From Pseudoalteromonas rubra (GTDB lineage: Bacteria; Pseudomonadota; Gammaproteobacteria; Enterobacterales; Alteromonadaceae), in contig NZ_CP013612.1 of NCBI RefSeq assembly GCF_001482385.1, positions 62,001 through 126,000 on the forward strand: a stretch of DNA of 64,000 nt. The letters run 5' to 3'. Of the stretch, positions 25,801-30,789 are shown piece by piece (position 1 is the first letter of the stretch; the number at the start of each line of letters is the position of its first letter). The notes below the pieces were generated by a model. That model was given only the letters and a program-made list of their open reading frames with translations. It did not search any database and was not told the origin of the DNA. A program made the position numbers and the translations under genes.

Positions 25801-27876
25801 ATGGTGTTATCAATGAGTTCAACTGTTCTGGCATACGCATTTCTTAAAGCTGCCTTTGGGCGAGGTCTTAAAAGCCCTATCGATGCAGTCGAGCCTTTGG
25901 TCAAAAGGGCTTTATTGGATCTTAAACATGGTCAATTTGAACAAGTCAAAGTTCAGACAGCGATAAAAAAGTACTTTGGCGTTGAAATTCCGCTCAACGT
26001 TATACGCTATACGTTTAAAAATATCTCCGCAAACACTGACCTCATTTCCTTAAATAAAAAGACTTTTATTTATGAACGGACCAAAAGTGAAAAAGGCATT
26101 GAAGATGTATTAAACATGGAGCGAGAATCAAAAGCGCAGATCAACCGGATAAAAGCGATTTTATTTGATGTGATTGAAGAGTACTCCAGATTCAAATTTG
26201 AAGCAGAAGAAGTGCTTGAAGAGTGGCTGGATAAGTCTGCTATTAGCTTTCTCGGCGGTAAGGCTCAGGCCTCAAACATCAGTAATCGGGACTCTGAACT
26301 GAACAGAATTGTCGCGATAGCAATTAACGATCCGGATCATGGCAAAACCTTCATCAAGGATCTTACGGATGTCGCTCTGGGGGATGCGTTATTGAGGGCG
26401 ATTACTGAAATAACTGAGTATGACAAGCATAAATCAAGTCAAGACATGGGATCTGCCATTGTCACCTTTCAGTCAAAGATGAAAGGTGTAGAGGTTTATT
26501 TCGATACTAAATTGGTGCTGCGTGTACTGGGTTACGTAAATGATGAAATGGAAAAAAGCACAAATGAGCTTATTAACTTGTGCAAATCATTAGACGCAAA
26601 AATTTGTATTTTCAGCCATACAGTCAGTGAAATTAAGAAAATTATTAATCGTGTCGCGTCTGGGTTGGTTGAGGGCAGGCAGGTTGATGGAGACTTAGCA
26701 AATCATGCGTTTCAACGAGGCATCAGCGCAGGTGAGTTGCTTGAATATGTTATCGACCTGGATGACAAGCTTAAACAGTTGGGGTTTGAGATCAAAGATG
26801 CTCCGACAGTCGAGCTGGAAAACTCGATAAATGAATCCAACCTGGACAATATGGTGGGCAGTCGATTAAACCAGGAGTCAGATGACGCGCGGATCGCTGA
26901 TGTTAATTCTATATGCGCAATTTACAGGCTCAGAAAAGGAGAAGCAAAGCGCTATCTTGAGAAATGTAACGCGATCTTTATTACTCCAAATAAAGCGCTT
27001 GCGGATACCGCCACCTTATTCTTTAAAAATCACTACAGGGATGAAGCTGAACCAAACAGAGTTCAGCACTGTATGACAGATGTGGTCTTTGCAACGCGTC
27101 TTTGGACTAAGTTACCCACATCGCTCGACAAGTTACCAAAGAATCAAATCGTGGCTCATGCGATGAGTAATCTCTCGATTAATAAAGAAGTAAAAAGCCA
27201 GTTTCAGAAGCACATTGGCGAATTAATAGGCGAGGGTAAATTAACTGAGCAAGAAGGTGTTCAGGTTAAGCTCTATAATTATACTGAAAAGCTGATTTCT
27301 TTAAGCGAGTATGCTTCGACACCCAGTAAAGATGGCGCTGAGTGTATTGCAAAAGAAATTATTAACAAACAAGGAAGCTACATCAATTCAATCATCGAAG
27401 ATAATGAAGAACAGAAAAAAGCGCTGGAGTCGCAGTTAAGTGATATGGAATCCAAATATGAGCGTGAGAAACAAACACTCGAAAGTGACAATGTTTATCT
27501 GACTGAATCTCTCAATAAAAAAGTAGAAGAGGGGCGAGTTAAAATTTCATATATGGAGATGAACTTGGCACGCATCGAAGCACGTTGCGGTAAGATAAGT
27601 CGAGTACTAACCAATAGCGTATTTTTAATCGCTTTTTTACTCGTGTACTATAGCTTTGTCATTAACTTGGACGTGACCCAATACTTAATGTCCCACTTTG
27701 AGATTGAGAAAAATGACACACTGGATAACGTTTTACAGTTTGTCTCAGTGATGTTTTTTACCATTATCTCGATATATGGTGTGTCTCGTACTGATTTTTA
27801 CGACTATTTTTATAGTAAATTGCGAGGGGTAATCATCAGAATAGTTGTGGGTAATGAAGAAGAATTCGAAGTTTAA
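25801..27876 (+). CDS. Large protein with PIN-nuclease-like core, coiled coil and two C-terminal membrane helices
   Basis: A 691-residue protein I do not recognise from a named family. Residues 1-220 are helical. From 230 to 405, a PIN-like signature appears in the right order: Asp235 in VYFDTKLVL after a beta strand, Glu277 in SHTVSEI, Asp367 in DARIADV, and a strand-turn FITPNKALAD (Asn397, Asp402). These are the acidic positions that bind metal in PIN ribonucleases. Residues 540-600 are a strong coiled coil, followed by two hydrophobic helices (about 608-625 and 643-660) and a short tail. A membrane-tethered RNase, perhaps a defence or stress effector, is an inference. The start is uncertain: no clear ribosome site lies before the ATGs at 25801 or 25813. 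Confidence 0.6.
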   Translation: MVLSMSSTVLAYAFLKAAFGRGLKSPIDAVEPLVKRALLDLKHGQFEQVKVQTAIKKYFGVEIPLNVIRYTFKNISANTDLISLNKKTFIYERTKSEKGIEDVLNMERESKAQINRIKAILFDVIEEYSRFKFEAEEVLEEWLDKSAISFLGGKAQASNISNRDSELNRIVAIAINDPDHGKTFIKDLTDVALGDALLRAITEITEYDKHKSSQDMGSAIVTFQSKMKGVEVYFDTKLVLRVLGYVNDEMEKSTNELINLCKSLDAKICIFSHTVSEIKKIINRVASGLVEGRQVDGDLANHAFQRGISAGELLEYVIDLDDKLKQLGFEIKDAPTVELENSINESNLDNMVGSRLNQESDDARIADVNSICAIYRLRKGEAKRYLEKCNAIFITPNKALADTATLFFKNHYRDEAEPNRVQHCMTDVVFATRLWTKLPTSLDKLPKNQIVAHAMSNLSINKEVKSQFQKHIGELIGEGKLTEQEGVQVKLYNYTEKLISLSEYASTPSKDGAECIAKEIINKQGSYINSIIEDNEEQKKALESQLSDMESKYEREKQTLESDNVYLTESLNKKVEEGRVKISYMEMNLARIEARCGKISRVLTNSVFLIAFLLVYYSFVINLDVTQYLMSHFEIEKNDTLDNVLQFVSVMFFTIISIYGVSRTDFYDYFYSKLRGVIIRIVVGNEEEFEV

Positions 27877-28559: not shown

Positions 28560-28663
28560 AAGGTAAAATACGCAAAGTTTAGGTGTCGATATGTTGCCAT
28601 ACTAACCACGAGGTGGAAAGATGCGCTACACTCACGCCATCCTCGTTATATGTTGTTTTGGAT

Positions 28664-29587
28664 ATGTATATAAACCGCCAGTCACTTAATACCAGCCTAC
28701 CGCTGGTGTATCACCCCAACTATTCATTCAGTTTCGATCCAAATCACCGCTTTGTGATGAGTAAGTTCGCTAATCTCTATCAGCAGGTGAGGGCAATGGG
28801 CTTGATTGGCGACAATGTATATCAACCTGAGCTGGGGTCACCGGAGCCACTGGAAACGGTGCACTGTGATACTTATTTATGGGATCTGTGGCGTAATCAA
28901 CTTGATGCTAAATCGATGCGTCGTATTGGTTTGCCTTGGTCTGAGCAGCTCATGGCGCGGACCTTCACTGCACCGCTTGGCACACTCAAGACCGCAGAGT
29001 TGGCGCTGCAAAACGGTGTAGCCTGTCATCTCGCTGGTGGCACGCACCACGCTCACTATGACTTTGGCTCAGGCTATTGTATGGTCAATGATTTAGTCTT
29101 TACTTCTACAACCCTGATAGCGCAAGGTAAAGTAAACAATGTGCTGATCTTTGATCTGGATGTCCACCAGGGAGATGGTACCGCAGCCATGCTCAAACAT
29201 AACCCCTATGTGTTTACCTGTTCTATTCACTGCGAAAAAAACTTTCCGTTTCGAAAACACAGCAGTGATCTGGATATTGGTCTGGCGAACAATCTGAGAG
29301 ACGCGGACTACTTGCATATCGTAGAAGACACCCTGACAGGCTTGCTCGAAGACGTTAATCCAGATCTGGTATTGTACGACGCTGGGGTGGATATCTGGGA
29401 GCACGACGGCCTGGGTAAGTTAGACATCAGTTGGCGAGGTCTGGAGCAGCGCGATGCGCTGGTGCTCAAAACTTGTCAGCATGCAGGCGTACCCGTTGCA
29501 ACCGTGATCGGCGGCGGTTACGACAAAGATCACCTGCGCCTGGCTCAGCGCCACGCCATTGTGGTGGAACAAGCGGCACTACTTTAA
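28664..29587 (+). CDS. Histone deacetylase-family (arginase-fold) hydrolase
   Basis: A 307-residue zinc deacetylase of the bacterial HDAC-like family. Motifs include the tandem His in GGTHHAHYD, the zinc site in FDLDVHQGDGT, the third zinc ligand in Y-D-A-G-V-D, and a C-terminal GGGYDKDH loop with the transition-state Tyr. Such enzymes remove acyl groups from polyamines, small molecules or proteins. The ATG at 28664 gives a normal family length; a GTG at 28583 would add 27 residues with no family resemblance, and neither has a strong ribosome site. The gene is divergent from flavin reductase. Confidence 0.85.
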   Translation: MYINRQSLNTSLPLVYHPNYSFSFDPNHRFVMSKFANLYQQVRAMGLIGDNVYQPELGSPEPLETVHCDTYLWDLWRNQLDAKSMRRIGLPWSEQLMARTFTAPLGTLKTAELALQNGVACHLAGGTHHAHYDFGSGYCMVNDLVFTSTTLIAQGKVNNVLIFDLDVHQGDGTAAMLKHNPYVFTCSIHCEKNFPFRKHSSDLDIGLANNLRDADYLHIVEDTLTGLLEDVNPDLVLYDAGVDIWEHDGLGKLDISWRGLEQRDALVLKTCQHAGVPVATVIGGGYDKDHLRLAQRHAIVVEQAALL

Positions 29588-29790
29588 AAGGGGTCCTGCT
29601 AGCTTCATTTAAATTAAAAGTAAGTGGGAGATTTTGAGTTAAATATAGGAGGCCTAAAGCCTTGATTAAAAAGGCTTATAAATATATTCATAAAATGCCT
29701 TTTATTTGTTTCTTTTGTTAAAAATTGGTTGCTTGTGCGCGTTGTTGGGCGGTATTTGTCGCTCACAGTATAAGGAAAGGGTACAAGTGT

Positions 29791-30075
29791 GTGAATAACA
29801 TAACAAGAAGGAACAAAACGGAAAGATTCAGACGCTACATTCAAAGCTCGGTCAGGCGCATGCGCCTGGAGCGTAAATGGTCTCAGGCCACCCTGGCTAA
29901 AAAGCTTGGCGTTGATCAGGCCACCATCAGCAATTATGAGTCCGGTAAAACCGATATGAGCAGTGTACAGCTGTTTGAGGTATTTTTAATATTTGGTAAA
30001 GATCTGACCAATGCGTTGGATTTTGCTGAGCCGAATTCAGATGAAGTTCAAGAGAACGATCAGGAGAAGGAGTAA
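29791..30075 (+). CDS. Small XRE-family regulator
   Basis: A 94-residue DNA-binding protein with a standard XRE domain: WSQATLAKKLGVDQATISNYE, split as two helices of the helix-turn-helix (about residues 28-50), followed by a short acidic tail. The GTG at 29791 is chosen because AAGGAAAGG lies about nine bases before it; earlier codons in frame have no ribosome site. Three micro-genes follow immediately on the same strand, the first only five bases after this stop, so it probably leads their operon and may regulate them. Confidence 0.8.
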   Translation: MNNITRRNKTERFRRYIQSSVRRMRLERKWSQATLAKKLGVDQATISNYESGKTDMSSVQLFEVFLIFGKDLTNALDFAEPNSDEVQENDQEKE

Positions 30076-30080
30076 CTTAT

Positions 30081-30164
30081 ATGTTTGATATTTATACAAT
30101 CGTTGATCATGCTCAGCCGCTTGTTATTGCTTGGGTGCCTGTTATTTTATGCAAAGAAGGCTGA
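30081..30164 (+). CDS. 27-residue micro-protein, unknown
   Basis: An ATG eight bases after a strong AAGGAG (located in the last codons of the XRE gene) opens a frame of 27 codons ending TGA. The peptide is mostly hydrophobic in its middle (P-L-V-I-A-W-V-P-V-I-L-C) and has one Cys near the C-terminus. It could be a small membrane peptide or a leader peptide. The excellent ribosome site is the only support, so it is a candidate gene. Confidence 0.5.
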   Translation: MFDIYTIVDHAQPLVIAWVPVILCKEG

Positions 30165-30181
30165 AGCAAGGGAACTTAACT

Positions 30182-30328
30182 ATGAAAAAACTAGATAAAC
30201 AGCAAATGAGTTTGGTCATGGGAGGCGACTCCCGTTCTCCAGATTTACCAGCAAGACAAAGAGCCGAGATAATGGAAAATGAGGCGAAAAAAGGAACTAC
30301 CCAATGGCTAGTTCAAAAGGAAAAATGA
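30182..30328 (+). CDS. Double-glycine-leader micro-peptide precursor
   Basis: A 48-residue peptide beginning MKKLDKQQMSLVMGG. Relative to Gly15 as position -1, Leu4 is at -12, Met9 at -7 and Val12 at -4, with Gly14-Gly15 at -2/-1. This is the classic spacing of double-glycine leaders cut by C39 peptidase/ABC transporters (bacteriocin and microcin export). The remaining 33 residues are charged and hydrophilic with no Cys, so no lanthionine or disulfide pattern is visible. AAGGGAACTTAACT precedes the ATG; a longer reading from 30131 lacks support. No transporter is in the window. It follows the XRE gene and the 27-residue micro-gene in the same direction. Confidence 0.65.
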   Translation: MKKLDKQQMSLVMGGDSRSPDLPARQRAEIMENEAKKGTTQWLVQKEK

Positions 30329-30339
30329 GGGATTGAATT

Positions 30340-30423
30340 ATGAAAATATTAATTAGACAGCTTGCAAAGCGCATCCACGGCGGTTCACATGGGCGCTCGA
30401 TTTACCGCAGCAGGCAAGAGTGA
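30340..30423 (+). CDS. Second short double-glycine peptide
   Basis: A 27-residue frame beginning MKILIRQLAKRIHGGS, with Gly-Gly at residues 14-15, the same position as in the neighbouring 48-residue peptide. Leu4 sits at -12 and Ile12 at -4; -7 is Ala. The 12-residue remainder is rich in Arg and Ser. GAGG lies about nine bases before the ATG. It begins 11 bases after the previous stop, so it is probably co-transcribed. It may be a truncated or genuine mini-precursor. Confidence 0.5.
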   Translation: MKILIRQLAKRIHGGSHGRSIYRSRQE

Positions 30424-30789
30424 TGCGACTACCTGATGATGCTGAGGTTTTGGAAAAGAAACCAGGTTGATCTAACGTTTAATAAATGGGTTTAACAAGT
30501 TCCAGTCTTTTTAAAACGAAAACTATCTGAACTTGTCACCATCTAGCACCAACACCCTTTGTCATCCCGGGCGCTTGCGACCCGGGAGCTGCTTAACACC
30601 ACTCAGCTCTCTAATCAGGAGGGAGAAAGCAGGAGCGACAAGTGCACGGTTTATTCATATCCTGCGGCTAGCGTTGATACCTGCCTGGCTCCAGACTCGA
30701 TCTCACTTCACCCTGAGCGCTGGTTATCAACCTGGTGTGCCAGTTCACTGCGGCTGCTAATTAATAATCAGCCCCGAATGGAGATTTCA
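30424..30789. other. Gene-free stretch with palindromic repeat fragment
   Basis: No supported gene in these 366 bases. At 30565-30587 the sequence TCCCGGG-CGCTTGCGA-CCCGGGA is an inverted repeat with an inner CGC/GCG pair; it resembles the GC-rich palindromic intergenic repeat that I recall in many gammaproteobacteria. A longer overlapping frame through this region exists only because it is open upstream of the DUF6429 start. Confidence 0.45.
30565..30587. repeat. GC-rich palindrome, possible dispersed repeat
   Basis: TCCCGGG and CCCGGGA arms of 7 bp flank CGCTTGCGA. It is GC-rich compared with its surroundings. No second copy was seen in this window, so calling it a dispersed element rests on memory of similar sequences. 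Confidence 0.4.

Follow-up and report, generated by a model that had tools for sequence, protein, structure and literature searches.

Does a small regulator gene followed by three micro-genes encode a new peptide system, as the initial annotation of this locus had proposed? The locus lies in the window, i.e. the whole 64-kb stretch of Pseudoalteromonas rubra DNA that was analyzed, which belongs to a genome of 5.9 Mb on three contigs (G000, the own genome). An XRE/Cro-type helix-turn-helix regulator of 94 aa with a GTG start is encoded at 29791-30075 on the + strand (Pfam HTH_3, 1.9e-11). It is followed on the + strand by micro-gene 1 (27 aa, 30081-30164), micro-gene 2 (48 aa, 30182-30328), and micro-gene 3 (27 aa, 30340-30423). 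A purine-rich ribosome site is present ahead of the XRE gene and of each micro-gene, all on the + strand, so that the place, the strand, and the ribosome sites given before were confirmed in the sequence. The flanking gene at 28583-29587 encodes a histone-deacetylase-like protein (Pfam, 3.7e-49). The XRE protein is 33-53% identical to five paralogues of its own genome, and Pfam recognized no sensor domain in it. Elsewhere in the window, a 691-aa ORF (25801-27876) lies in the most AT-rich 2-kb bin (GC 0.399), and a hydrophobic stretch near its C-terminus was noted by eye.

The 15-residue leader of micro-gene 2 contains Leu at -12, Met at -7, Val at -4, and Gly-Gly at -2/-1, and its core contains SPDLPAR. 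In micro-gene 3, Leu at -12, Ala at -7, Ile at -4, and Gly-Gly were found. The leader residues described earlier for the 48-aa peptide and the Gly-Gly of the third peptide are thus as stated. Both strands of the whole window were searched with a rule demanding a ribosome site, [LIVM] at -12, [LIVMA] at -7, [VIALMT] at -4, and GG. Micro-genes 2 and 3 were the only matches, and twenty dinucleotide shuffles of the window yielded two matches in total, showing that the occurrence of these two frames is above chance. A profile of 22 peptides from the loci described below (A5), which includes the orthologues of both peptides from a second genome (G130), matched micro-gene 2 with an E-value of 1.1e-13 and micro-gene 3 at profile positions 1-20 only (E 2.9e-4). 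The absence of a recognized family, which had been noted before, held up, as Pfam and NCBIfam named none for the peptides. The curated bacteriocin models gave no match above cut-off with the window peptides, and a model of rSAM-modified double-glycine RiPPs (TIGR04149, cut-off 25) scored 13.9 bits with peptide 2 and 14.7 bits with its G130 orthologue. Judged by their leaders, micro-genes 2 and 3 are double-glycine (C39-type) precursors, for which cleavage and secretion are predicted.

The comparison of strains that had been suggested as a check revealed which parts of the window locus have decayed, because G130 holds an unbroken orthologue (L112) at the equivalent site of its chromosome, which is likewise flanked by the deacetylase-like gene. 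It comprises the XRE gene, a gene for a membrane protein of 176 aa, the 48-residue peptide, and a second peptide of 44 residues with an SPDLP core of its own. The XRE proteins of the two genomes are identical, and their genes differ by 5 synonymous codon changes and in no other way. Micro-gene 2 shares 47 of 48 residues with its orthologue, with 5 synonymous differences and 1 nonsynonymous difference. The predominance of synonymous differences supports that the XRE gene and the 48-aa peptide are coding. In the membrane-protein gene, 413 bp are gone in the window between two 9-bp direct repeats (TTGTTATTG), and a span of 531 bp in G130 corresponds to 118 bp in the window in the DNA alignment. 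The junction lies inside 30121-30129 (+). As the deletion breaks the frame, micro-gene 1 is the stub that remains, i.e. the first codons of the membrane-protein gene reading out of frame into its 3' remnant (30121-30198, +), the last part of which overlaps the start of micro-gene 2. The alignment to L112 thereby ruled out micro-gene 1 as a peptide gene. In micro-gene 3, a 4-bp gap relative to G130 shifts the frame just after the Gly-Gly and ahead of the proline motif, and a precursor of 27 aa instead of 44 results.

The earlier reading of three micro-genes with double-glycine leaders is therefore valid for the second and the third, the latter in frame-shifted form, and not for the first. The Gly-Gly motif was expected to be conserved among homologues if the reading was right, and it is kept in the G130 orthologue and in the relatives, although the set of 76 frames discussed below was itself selected by this motif. 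By these alignments, the window locus is a decayed member of a repeated cassette and now lacks the membrane protein as well as one of its two peptides. With the membrane gene deleted and micro-gene 3 frame-shifted, it probably does not form a complete working system. The proposal of a new peptide system is thus borne out with respect to real double-glycine precursors and an XRE partner, whereas the window copy as a whole is probably non-functional; intact relatives may work.

The same site was also compared in further genomes. In G092 (L078) and G033 (L092), the XRE gene and the membrane gene are kept and no peptide was seen. In G093, G094, G095, G100, and G122, the deacetylase gene matches, and the XRE region is absent in the ~1.3-1.5 kb beyond it. 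The cassette site thus appears as a mosaic of partial losses or gains between strains. A 158-aa frame stands in place of the cassette in G100 (L166, compared with window positions 29590-30560).

The distribution of the cassette was analyzed with a membrane-protein profile (A3) that was built from four proteins of the own genome and applied with a cut-off of E <= 0.001. Between 1 and 9 matches per genome were obtained in 28 of 108 Pseudoalteromonas genomes, with seven in the own genome and nine in G092, one of which is a fragment. This number is a lower bound, because G087, which was counted as negative, has a diverged XRE/membrane-gene pair (L226, E 6.5e-6), with a match to the peptide profile 86 bp behind it. 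Eight named loci with this protein family all come from Pseudoalteromonas, four of them from P. rubra. The 92 stretches around the matches contained 113 profile-positive frames, and 112 usable membrane genes remained after one frame without start codon had been dropped (the L074 fragment).

An XRE frame end was sought between -60 and +150 bp from the membrane gene start; it was found at -10 to +39 bp in 83 of the 112 cases, and 63 of these 83 also have a double-glycine peptide. Altogether, such a peptide follows 68 of 112 membrane genes, compared with 2/112 on the opposite strand and 1-6/112 in 20 shuffles. In 42 of the 68 cases, the start of the first peptide falls within the final 50 bp of the membrane gene. 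The 44 membrane genes that lack a peptide under the rule used include loci that show one under a laxer rule (L141, L151, L102) as well as tandem membrane genes. Some loci have a single peptide and others an array of as many as five (L131, L143, L153), and a few precursors are multi-core, e.g. L068 with SPDLPKR, SPDLPPR, and SPDLPPK. At L127, L135, and L156, three to four membrane genes stand in a row with few or no double-glycine peptides between them. A plasmid-borne module was also considered and discarded, as one tblastn query gave no match in 72,556 plasmid records. In summary, as far as it can be read from the genomes, the cassette consists of an XRE regulator, a helical membrane protein of ~176 aa, and double-glycine leader peptides with proline-rich cores, and it is present in multiple copies. 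It was recognized nowhere in the open-licence full-text literature searched and is undescribed there, and it is wider than the finding in the window itself.

For the peptides, 76 non-redundant frames were collected that were chosen by the Gly-Gly motif, including a few that look spurious by eye and were kept. The leader has 15 residues in 47 of them; position -12 is occupied by L/I in 60 frames, position -7 by L in 49, and position -4 by V/I in 60. The cores have a median length of 28 residues and contain 16% proline. The motif P-x(0-3)-P is found within the first 22 residues in 72/76, and [SA]P.[LTVI]P in 30/76, often as SPDLPxR. Lanthipeptide cores were rejected as a general rule, as only 9 of 76 cores contain Cys. 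A membrane RiPP of the TMcin type was rejected as well, since the precursor described in the excerpt of PMC13252029 contains a transmembrane helix. For 16 pairs of peptide genes (non-overlapping, of equal length, at least 75% identical in DNA, two of the pairs being neighbours in one locus), dN/dS was 0.17 for the whole frame, 0.23 for the leader, and 0.16 for the core. These values argue that both parts of the peptide are maintained, with purifying selection on the core.

The A5 profile, which was made from these same loci, gave 48 matches in 19 of 108 genomes at E <= 1e-6 (counted by eye), and all 19 have a membrane gene. Inspected by eye, 46 of these matches lie close to a membrane gene. 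The two exceptions are the window copy, whose membrane gene is broken, and a peptide in G130 (G130:C1:665662, L222), around which neither an XRE gene nor a membrane gene was found within 4 kb. L222 adjoins a MerR-type gene similar to the one that flanks the cassette L070 of the own genome. When the threshold was relaxed to E <= 0.05, matches were found in 40 genomes, i.e. all 28 with a membrane gene and 12 others, many of them leader-only. One of these 12 is G029, with a double-glycine peptide (L223, E 2.7e-4) around which 4 kb contained neither an XRE nor a membrane-gene match; another is G087 with its diverged cassette (L226). Weak similarities to NCBIfam leader models were found, with a best E-value of 0.0011; they include Gram-positive induction factors, a pheromone, and also bacteriocins, and the window-type peptide stays below the cut-offs. 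Among the 22 peptides of A5, four weakly matched TIGR01847 (best E 0.0021), and single members weakly matched other bacteriocin models. A second, related precursor type was observed in the own genome at C2:223515-224216 (L006, L210), where a 234-aa polyprotein with repeated GG...KPPR units is encoded directly behind a small XRE gene and divergently from another XRE gene. Matches to this polyprotein were obtained in 17/108 genomes of the genus at E <= 0.01, and the number of units varies where it was read (L211-L221).

The membrane protein could not be assigned convincingly to a family: when 73 members were scanned at E <= 0.01, the yield was a single weak match, to one member, in each of Pfam, NCBIfam, and PADLOC. 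A toxin-antitoxin pair of the HipB/HigA-like type II was excluded, because no toxin family was found among the 73 partner membrane proteins in these three collections at this threshold. A PDB sequence search with the membrane profile returned four weak matches (best E 0.062). Hydropathy averaged by alignment column revealed five main hydrophobic segments, and AlphaFold2 modelled the G130 protein with confidence as a purely helical structure (pLDDT 93.8, pTM 0.85). Conservation is complete at R30 and E124, 99% at R75 and E104, and 96% at W24 and Y58. Outside the genus, one match besides the own genome was obtained in a sample of 394 genomes of the order (G478, E 9e-8), and the G478 protein as query added G876 among 146 genomes of its family. 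A class sample of 369 genomes contained no match apart from the own genome. In G478 (L201) and G876 (L209), which belong to a different family of the order, an XRE gene is followed by a gene for a small protein (77-83 aa) and then by the distant membrane-protein relative, and the small proteins end in the proline-rich tails RLPPRK and GKPPKK. The combination of XRE, membrane-protein relative, and proline tail suggests that the putative receptor and the proline tail may predate the double-glycine leader. A double-glycine peptide in G027 lies beside a different membrane protein of 187 aa (L224:1423-2171). In the own genome, a 187-aa protein that by eye resembles it is encoded ~200 bp from an operator-like site (L193:1696-2259).

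A Mantel test on 52 of the 68 membrane genes (after removal of any with an identity of 85% or more to a retained one) and the first peptide of each gave a rho of 0.33 between core similarity and membrane-protein identity, and 0 of 999 permutations were as high. For the leader, rho was 0.11, and 32 of 999 permutations were as high. With pairs below 45% membrane-protein identity, the values were 0.24 for the core and 0.004 for the leader. Linkage alone would be expected to affect leader and core alike, and the bias towards the core thus supports that the membrane protein recognizes the core. This is no proof, however: with a shorter and more tightly constrained leader, the test may have had less power there, and at 32 of 999 permutations the leader signal is weak rather than missing.

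A candidate for the regulatory site was found upstream of the XRE genes. Of 44 non-redundant XRE genes (from 99 upstream regions), 29 have the palindrome TTATRAATANNTTCATAAA at >=8 bits in their upstream region, compared with 0-4/44 in ten mononucleotide shuffles, the matrix having been trained on the sequences that it scores. Twelve of the 29 palindromes lie 112-119 bp ahead of the XRE start. The copy in the window, TTATAAATATATTCATAAA at 29676-29694, lies 115 bp ahead. An alignment of 15 upstream regions, hand-chosen among the carriers of the site, contains conserved islands at the palindrome, TTTTGTTAA, GTTG, a GATAATTT-like element, and the ribosome site. On the basis of the GTTG and GATAATTT-like islands, a promoter-like pair was located by eye in the window on the + strand, with a putative -35 box TTGCTT (29729-29734) and a putative -10 box GTATTT (29752-29757) at a spacing of 17 bp; its consensus match is weak, and a consensus promoter scorer did not place the pair (29729-29757) among the best three of the window. 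The palindrome is upstream of the -35 block, which would fit an activator.

In the own genome, a degenerate pattern with <=1 mismatch gave 19 matches at 15 places, compared with 4 for the reversed pattern, and 8 of the 15 places are in cassettes (counted by eye). No XRE or membrane-gene match was found near the 7 sites outside cassettes. One of these 7 is a perfect match to the pattern between two divergent non-cassette genes (L182, G000:C2:54724). Judged by the motif, the palindrome is a putative operator of the XRE protein.

A transporter had been described as missing. The genome-wide search for C39 peptidase/ABC exporters that had been recommended yielded two C39 matches in the own genome, the strong one being a 714-aa C39-ABC exporter with ABC domains. 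It is encoded on another contig, at ~2.74 Mb of G000:C1, next to an HlyD gene, so that the claim does not hold for the genome. All 28 genomes that carry the membrane gene have a strong C39 match (E < 1e-25), compared with 37 of the remaining 80 (Fisher 4e-8, counted by eye and uncorrected for phylogeny). In the 108 genomes of the genus, none of the C39 matches lies closer than ~25 kb to a membrane gene of its contig. The strong exporter adjoins LanB- and LanC-like genes and may thus serve another peptide. The C39 exporter of the genome can be regarded as a candidate exporter for the cassette peptides that is unlinked to the cassette. The exporter region itself (L159, G000:C1:2731000-2745000), with LanB-like, LanC-like, C39 exporter, and HlyD genes, is a candidate class I lanthipeptide locus, and a small double-glycine frame lies near the exporter at L159 11109-11198.

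Taken together, we propose that the intact cassette is a self-regulated secreted-peptide system, and we give this explanation about an even chance of being correct, with signalling likelier than a bacteriocin function. The XRE protein would bind the palindrome upstream of its own promoter, and the motif, common to the copies of a genome, would link these to one another. One transcript would carry the regulator, the membrane protein, and the peptides. The C39 exporter would cleave the leader after the Gly-Gly and release a peptide that is short, hydrophilic, and rich in proline. Its core would then be recognized by the cognate membrane protein, which would control the XRE protein, and the peptide would act as an autoinducer-like signal. 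The control step is modelled on the membrane inhibitors of LytTR regulatory systems. Points against this explanation are the XRE protein without a recognized sensor domain, the 44 of 112 membrane genes that lack a peptide under the rule used, the distance between C39 and membrane genes, and the weak peptide-profile matches in 12 genomes that have no profile-positive membrane gene. The statistics back the operator-like motif, the pairing of core and membrane protein, and the co-occurrence with the exporter; core recognition and the signalling role are the least certain steps. Two observations favour signalling over a bacteriocin: the cores are rich in proline and are conserved among close relatives, and peptides are still present where there is no intact membrane gene, in the window and at L222.

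The cassette could also encode microcin-like bacteriocins that kill or inhibit kin, with the membrane protein as immunity protein and the XRE protein silencing the operon. This explanation would be in agreement with the double-glycine precursors, with a small membrane protein that tracks the core, with the many diverse copies per genome, and with the sub-threshold leader matches to bacteriocin models. The membrane genes without peptides at the site of the window in G092 and G033 (L078, L092) are as expected for resistant non-producers. However, pore-forming class II bacteriocins are unlike the short, proline-rich, and mostly Cys-free cores, the core dN/dS does not point to an arms race among close relatives, and an exporter gene beside the peptide is absent (C39 type, within ~25 kb). 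In addition, peptide 2 of the window is almost unchanged after loss of the membrane gene, and the L222 peptide also stands without one. Keeping the peptide in this way would be costly for a toxin with one immunity protein, unless a paralogue protects. We therefore consider a bacteriocin function unlikely, although it deserves to be taken seriously.

It is far less probable that the membrane protein is a membrane-bound RiPP enzyme that modifies or processes the peptide without any sensing. The near-invariant charged residues R30, R75, E104, and E124 in an otherwise variable protein could be explained in this way, as could the tracking of core and membrane protein and the LanB/LanC-like genes beside the strong exporter of the own genome. 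Yet no enzyme family was matched in the collections scanned, no membrane-gene match lies near a C39 match, and in the 67 of 76 cores that are free of Cys no lanthionine can be formed. A last explanation concerns the window locus alone, which might be junk, i.e. a pseudogene cassette without a function of its own. This is a real possibility, if somewhat short of an even one: the membrane gene and peptide 3 are broken, but the XRE protein is unchanged and peptide 2 nearly so in comparison with G130, and export and sensing via a paralogue would be possible. Junk in the window would be compatible with a self-regulated secreted-peptide system in the family.

For the genus as a whole, we tentatively suggest a family of peptide signalling channels in a Gram-negative bacterium, each with a secreted proline-rich peptide and a five-segment membrane receptor of its own and with a kinase-free XRE regulator, which would share the exporter and the operator; we hold this extension to be possible rather than probable. 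If it were true, as many as about eight peptide dialects may operate in parallel in one cell. In Gram-positive bacteria, signalling by double-glycine precursors is understood in detail; to our knowledge, reports from Gram-negative bacteria are sparse. The cassette family offers testable parts, i.e. a conserved core that can be synthesized, a cognate membrane protein, and a regulator with a predicted operator, together with natural variants in which single parts are missing, in a marine genus that is studied for bioactive compounds. If the peptides were bacteriocins, they would form a proline-rich class with paired immunity genes that was not found described in the open-licence literature searched.

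Several known systems resemble the cassette in parts. Genome mining that included P. rubra S2471 reported general bacteriocin predictions, and in the main text as consulted (an excerpt of PMC4359443) the words 'leader' and 'microcin' are absent. The Gram-positive models EntF (NF033383) and VP1 (NF033772) match 7 and 1 of the 22 A5 peptides, with best E-values of 0.0011 and 0.0036, and the window-type peptide reaches 13.4 bits with EntF, below the 35-bit cut-off. In contrast to Gram-positive double-glycine pheromones, no histidine kinase or response regulator was seen in the cassettes, and the cassette core is proline-rich. The mcbABCI operon of Moraxella catarrhalis, which encodes a Gram-negative double-glycine bacteriocin (McbC), is alike in combining a double-glycine precursor with an overlapping small partner gene; it is unlike the cassette in that it holds secretion genes and encodes a 74-aa immunity protein, and the excerpt of PMC2761928 mentions no XRE regulator. 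Cyanobacterial small secreted double-glycine proteins in biofilm development are alike in their non-antibiotic role, a likeness by description alone (PMC4997328, excerpt).

LytTR systems such as HdrRM and BrsRM of Streptococcus mutans differ from the cassette in the regulator, which has a LytTR domain instead of the HTH_3/XRE domain found in the window. They occur mostly in Firmicutes, and peptides are not described as part of the operon in the excerpt of PMC6193735, while bacteriocin genes are included in LytTR regulons. They resemble the cassette in that a DNA-binding regulator and a transmembrane inhibitor form a two-gene unit, in autoregulation via a repeat upstream of the promoter, and in the presence of several cross-regulating copies (PMC6193735, same excerpt). 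By this analogy, the LytTR pair of regulator and membrane inhibitor would be the closest functional model for the cassette.
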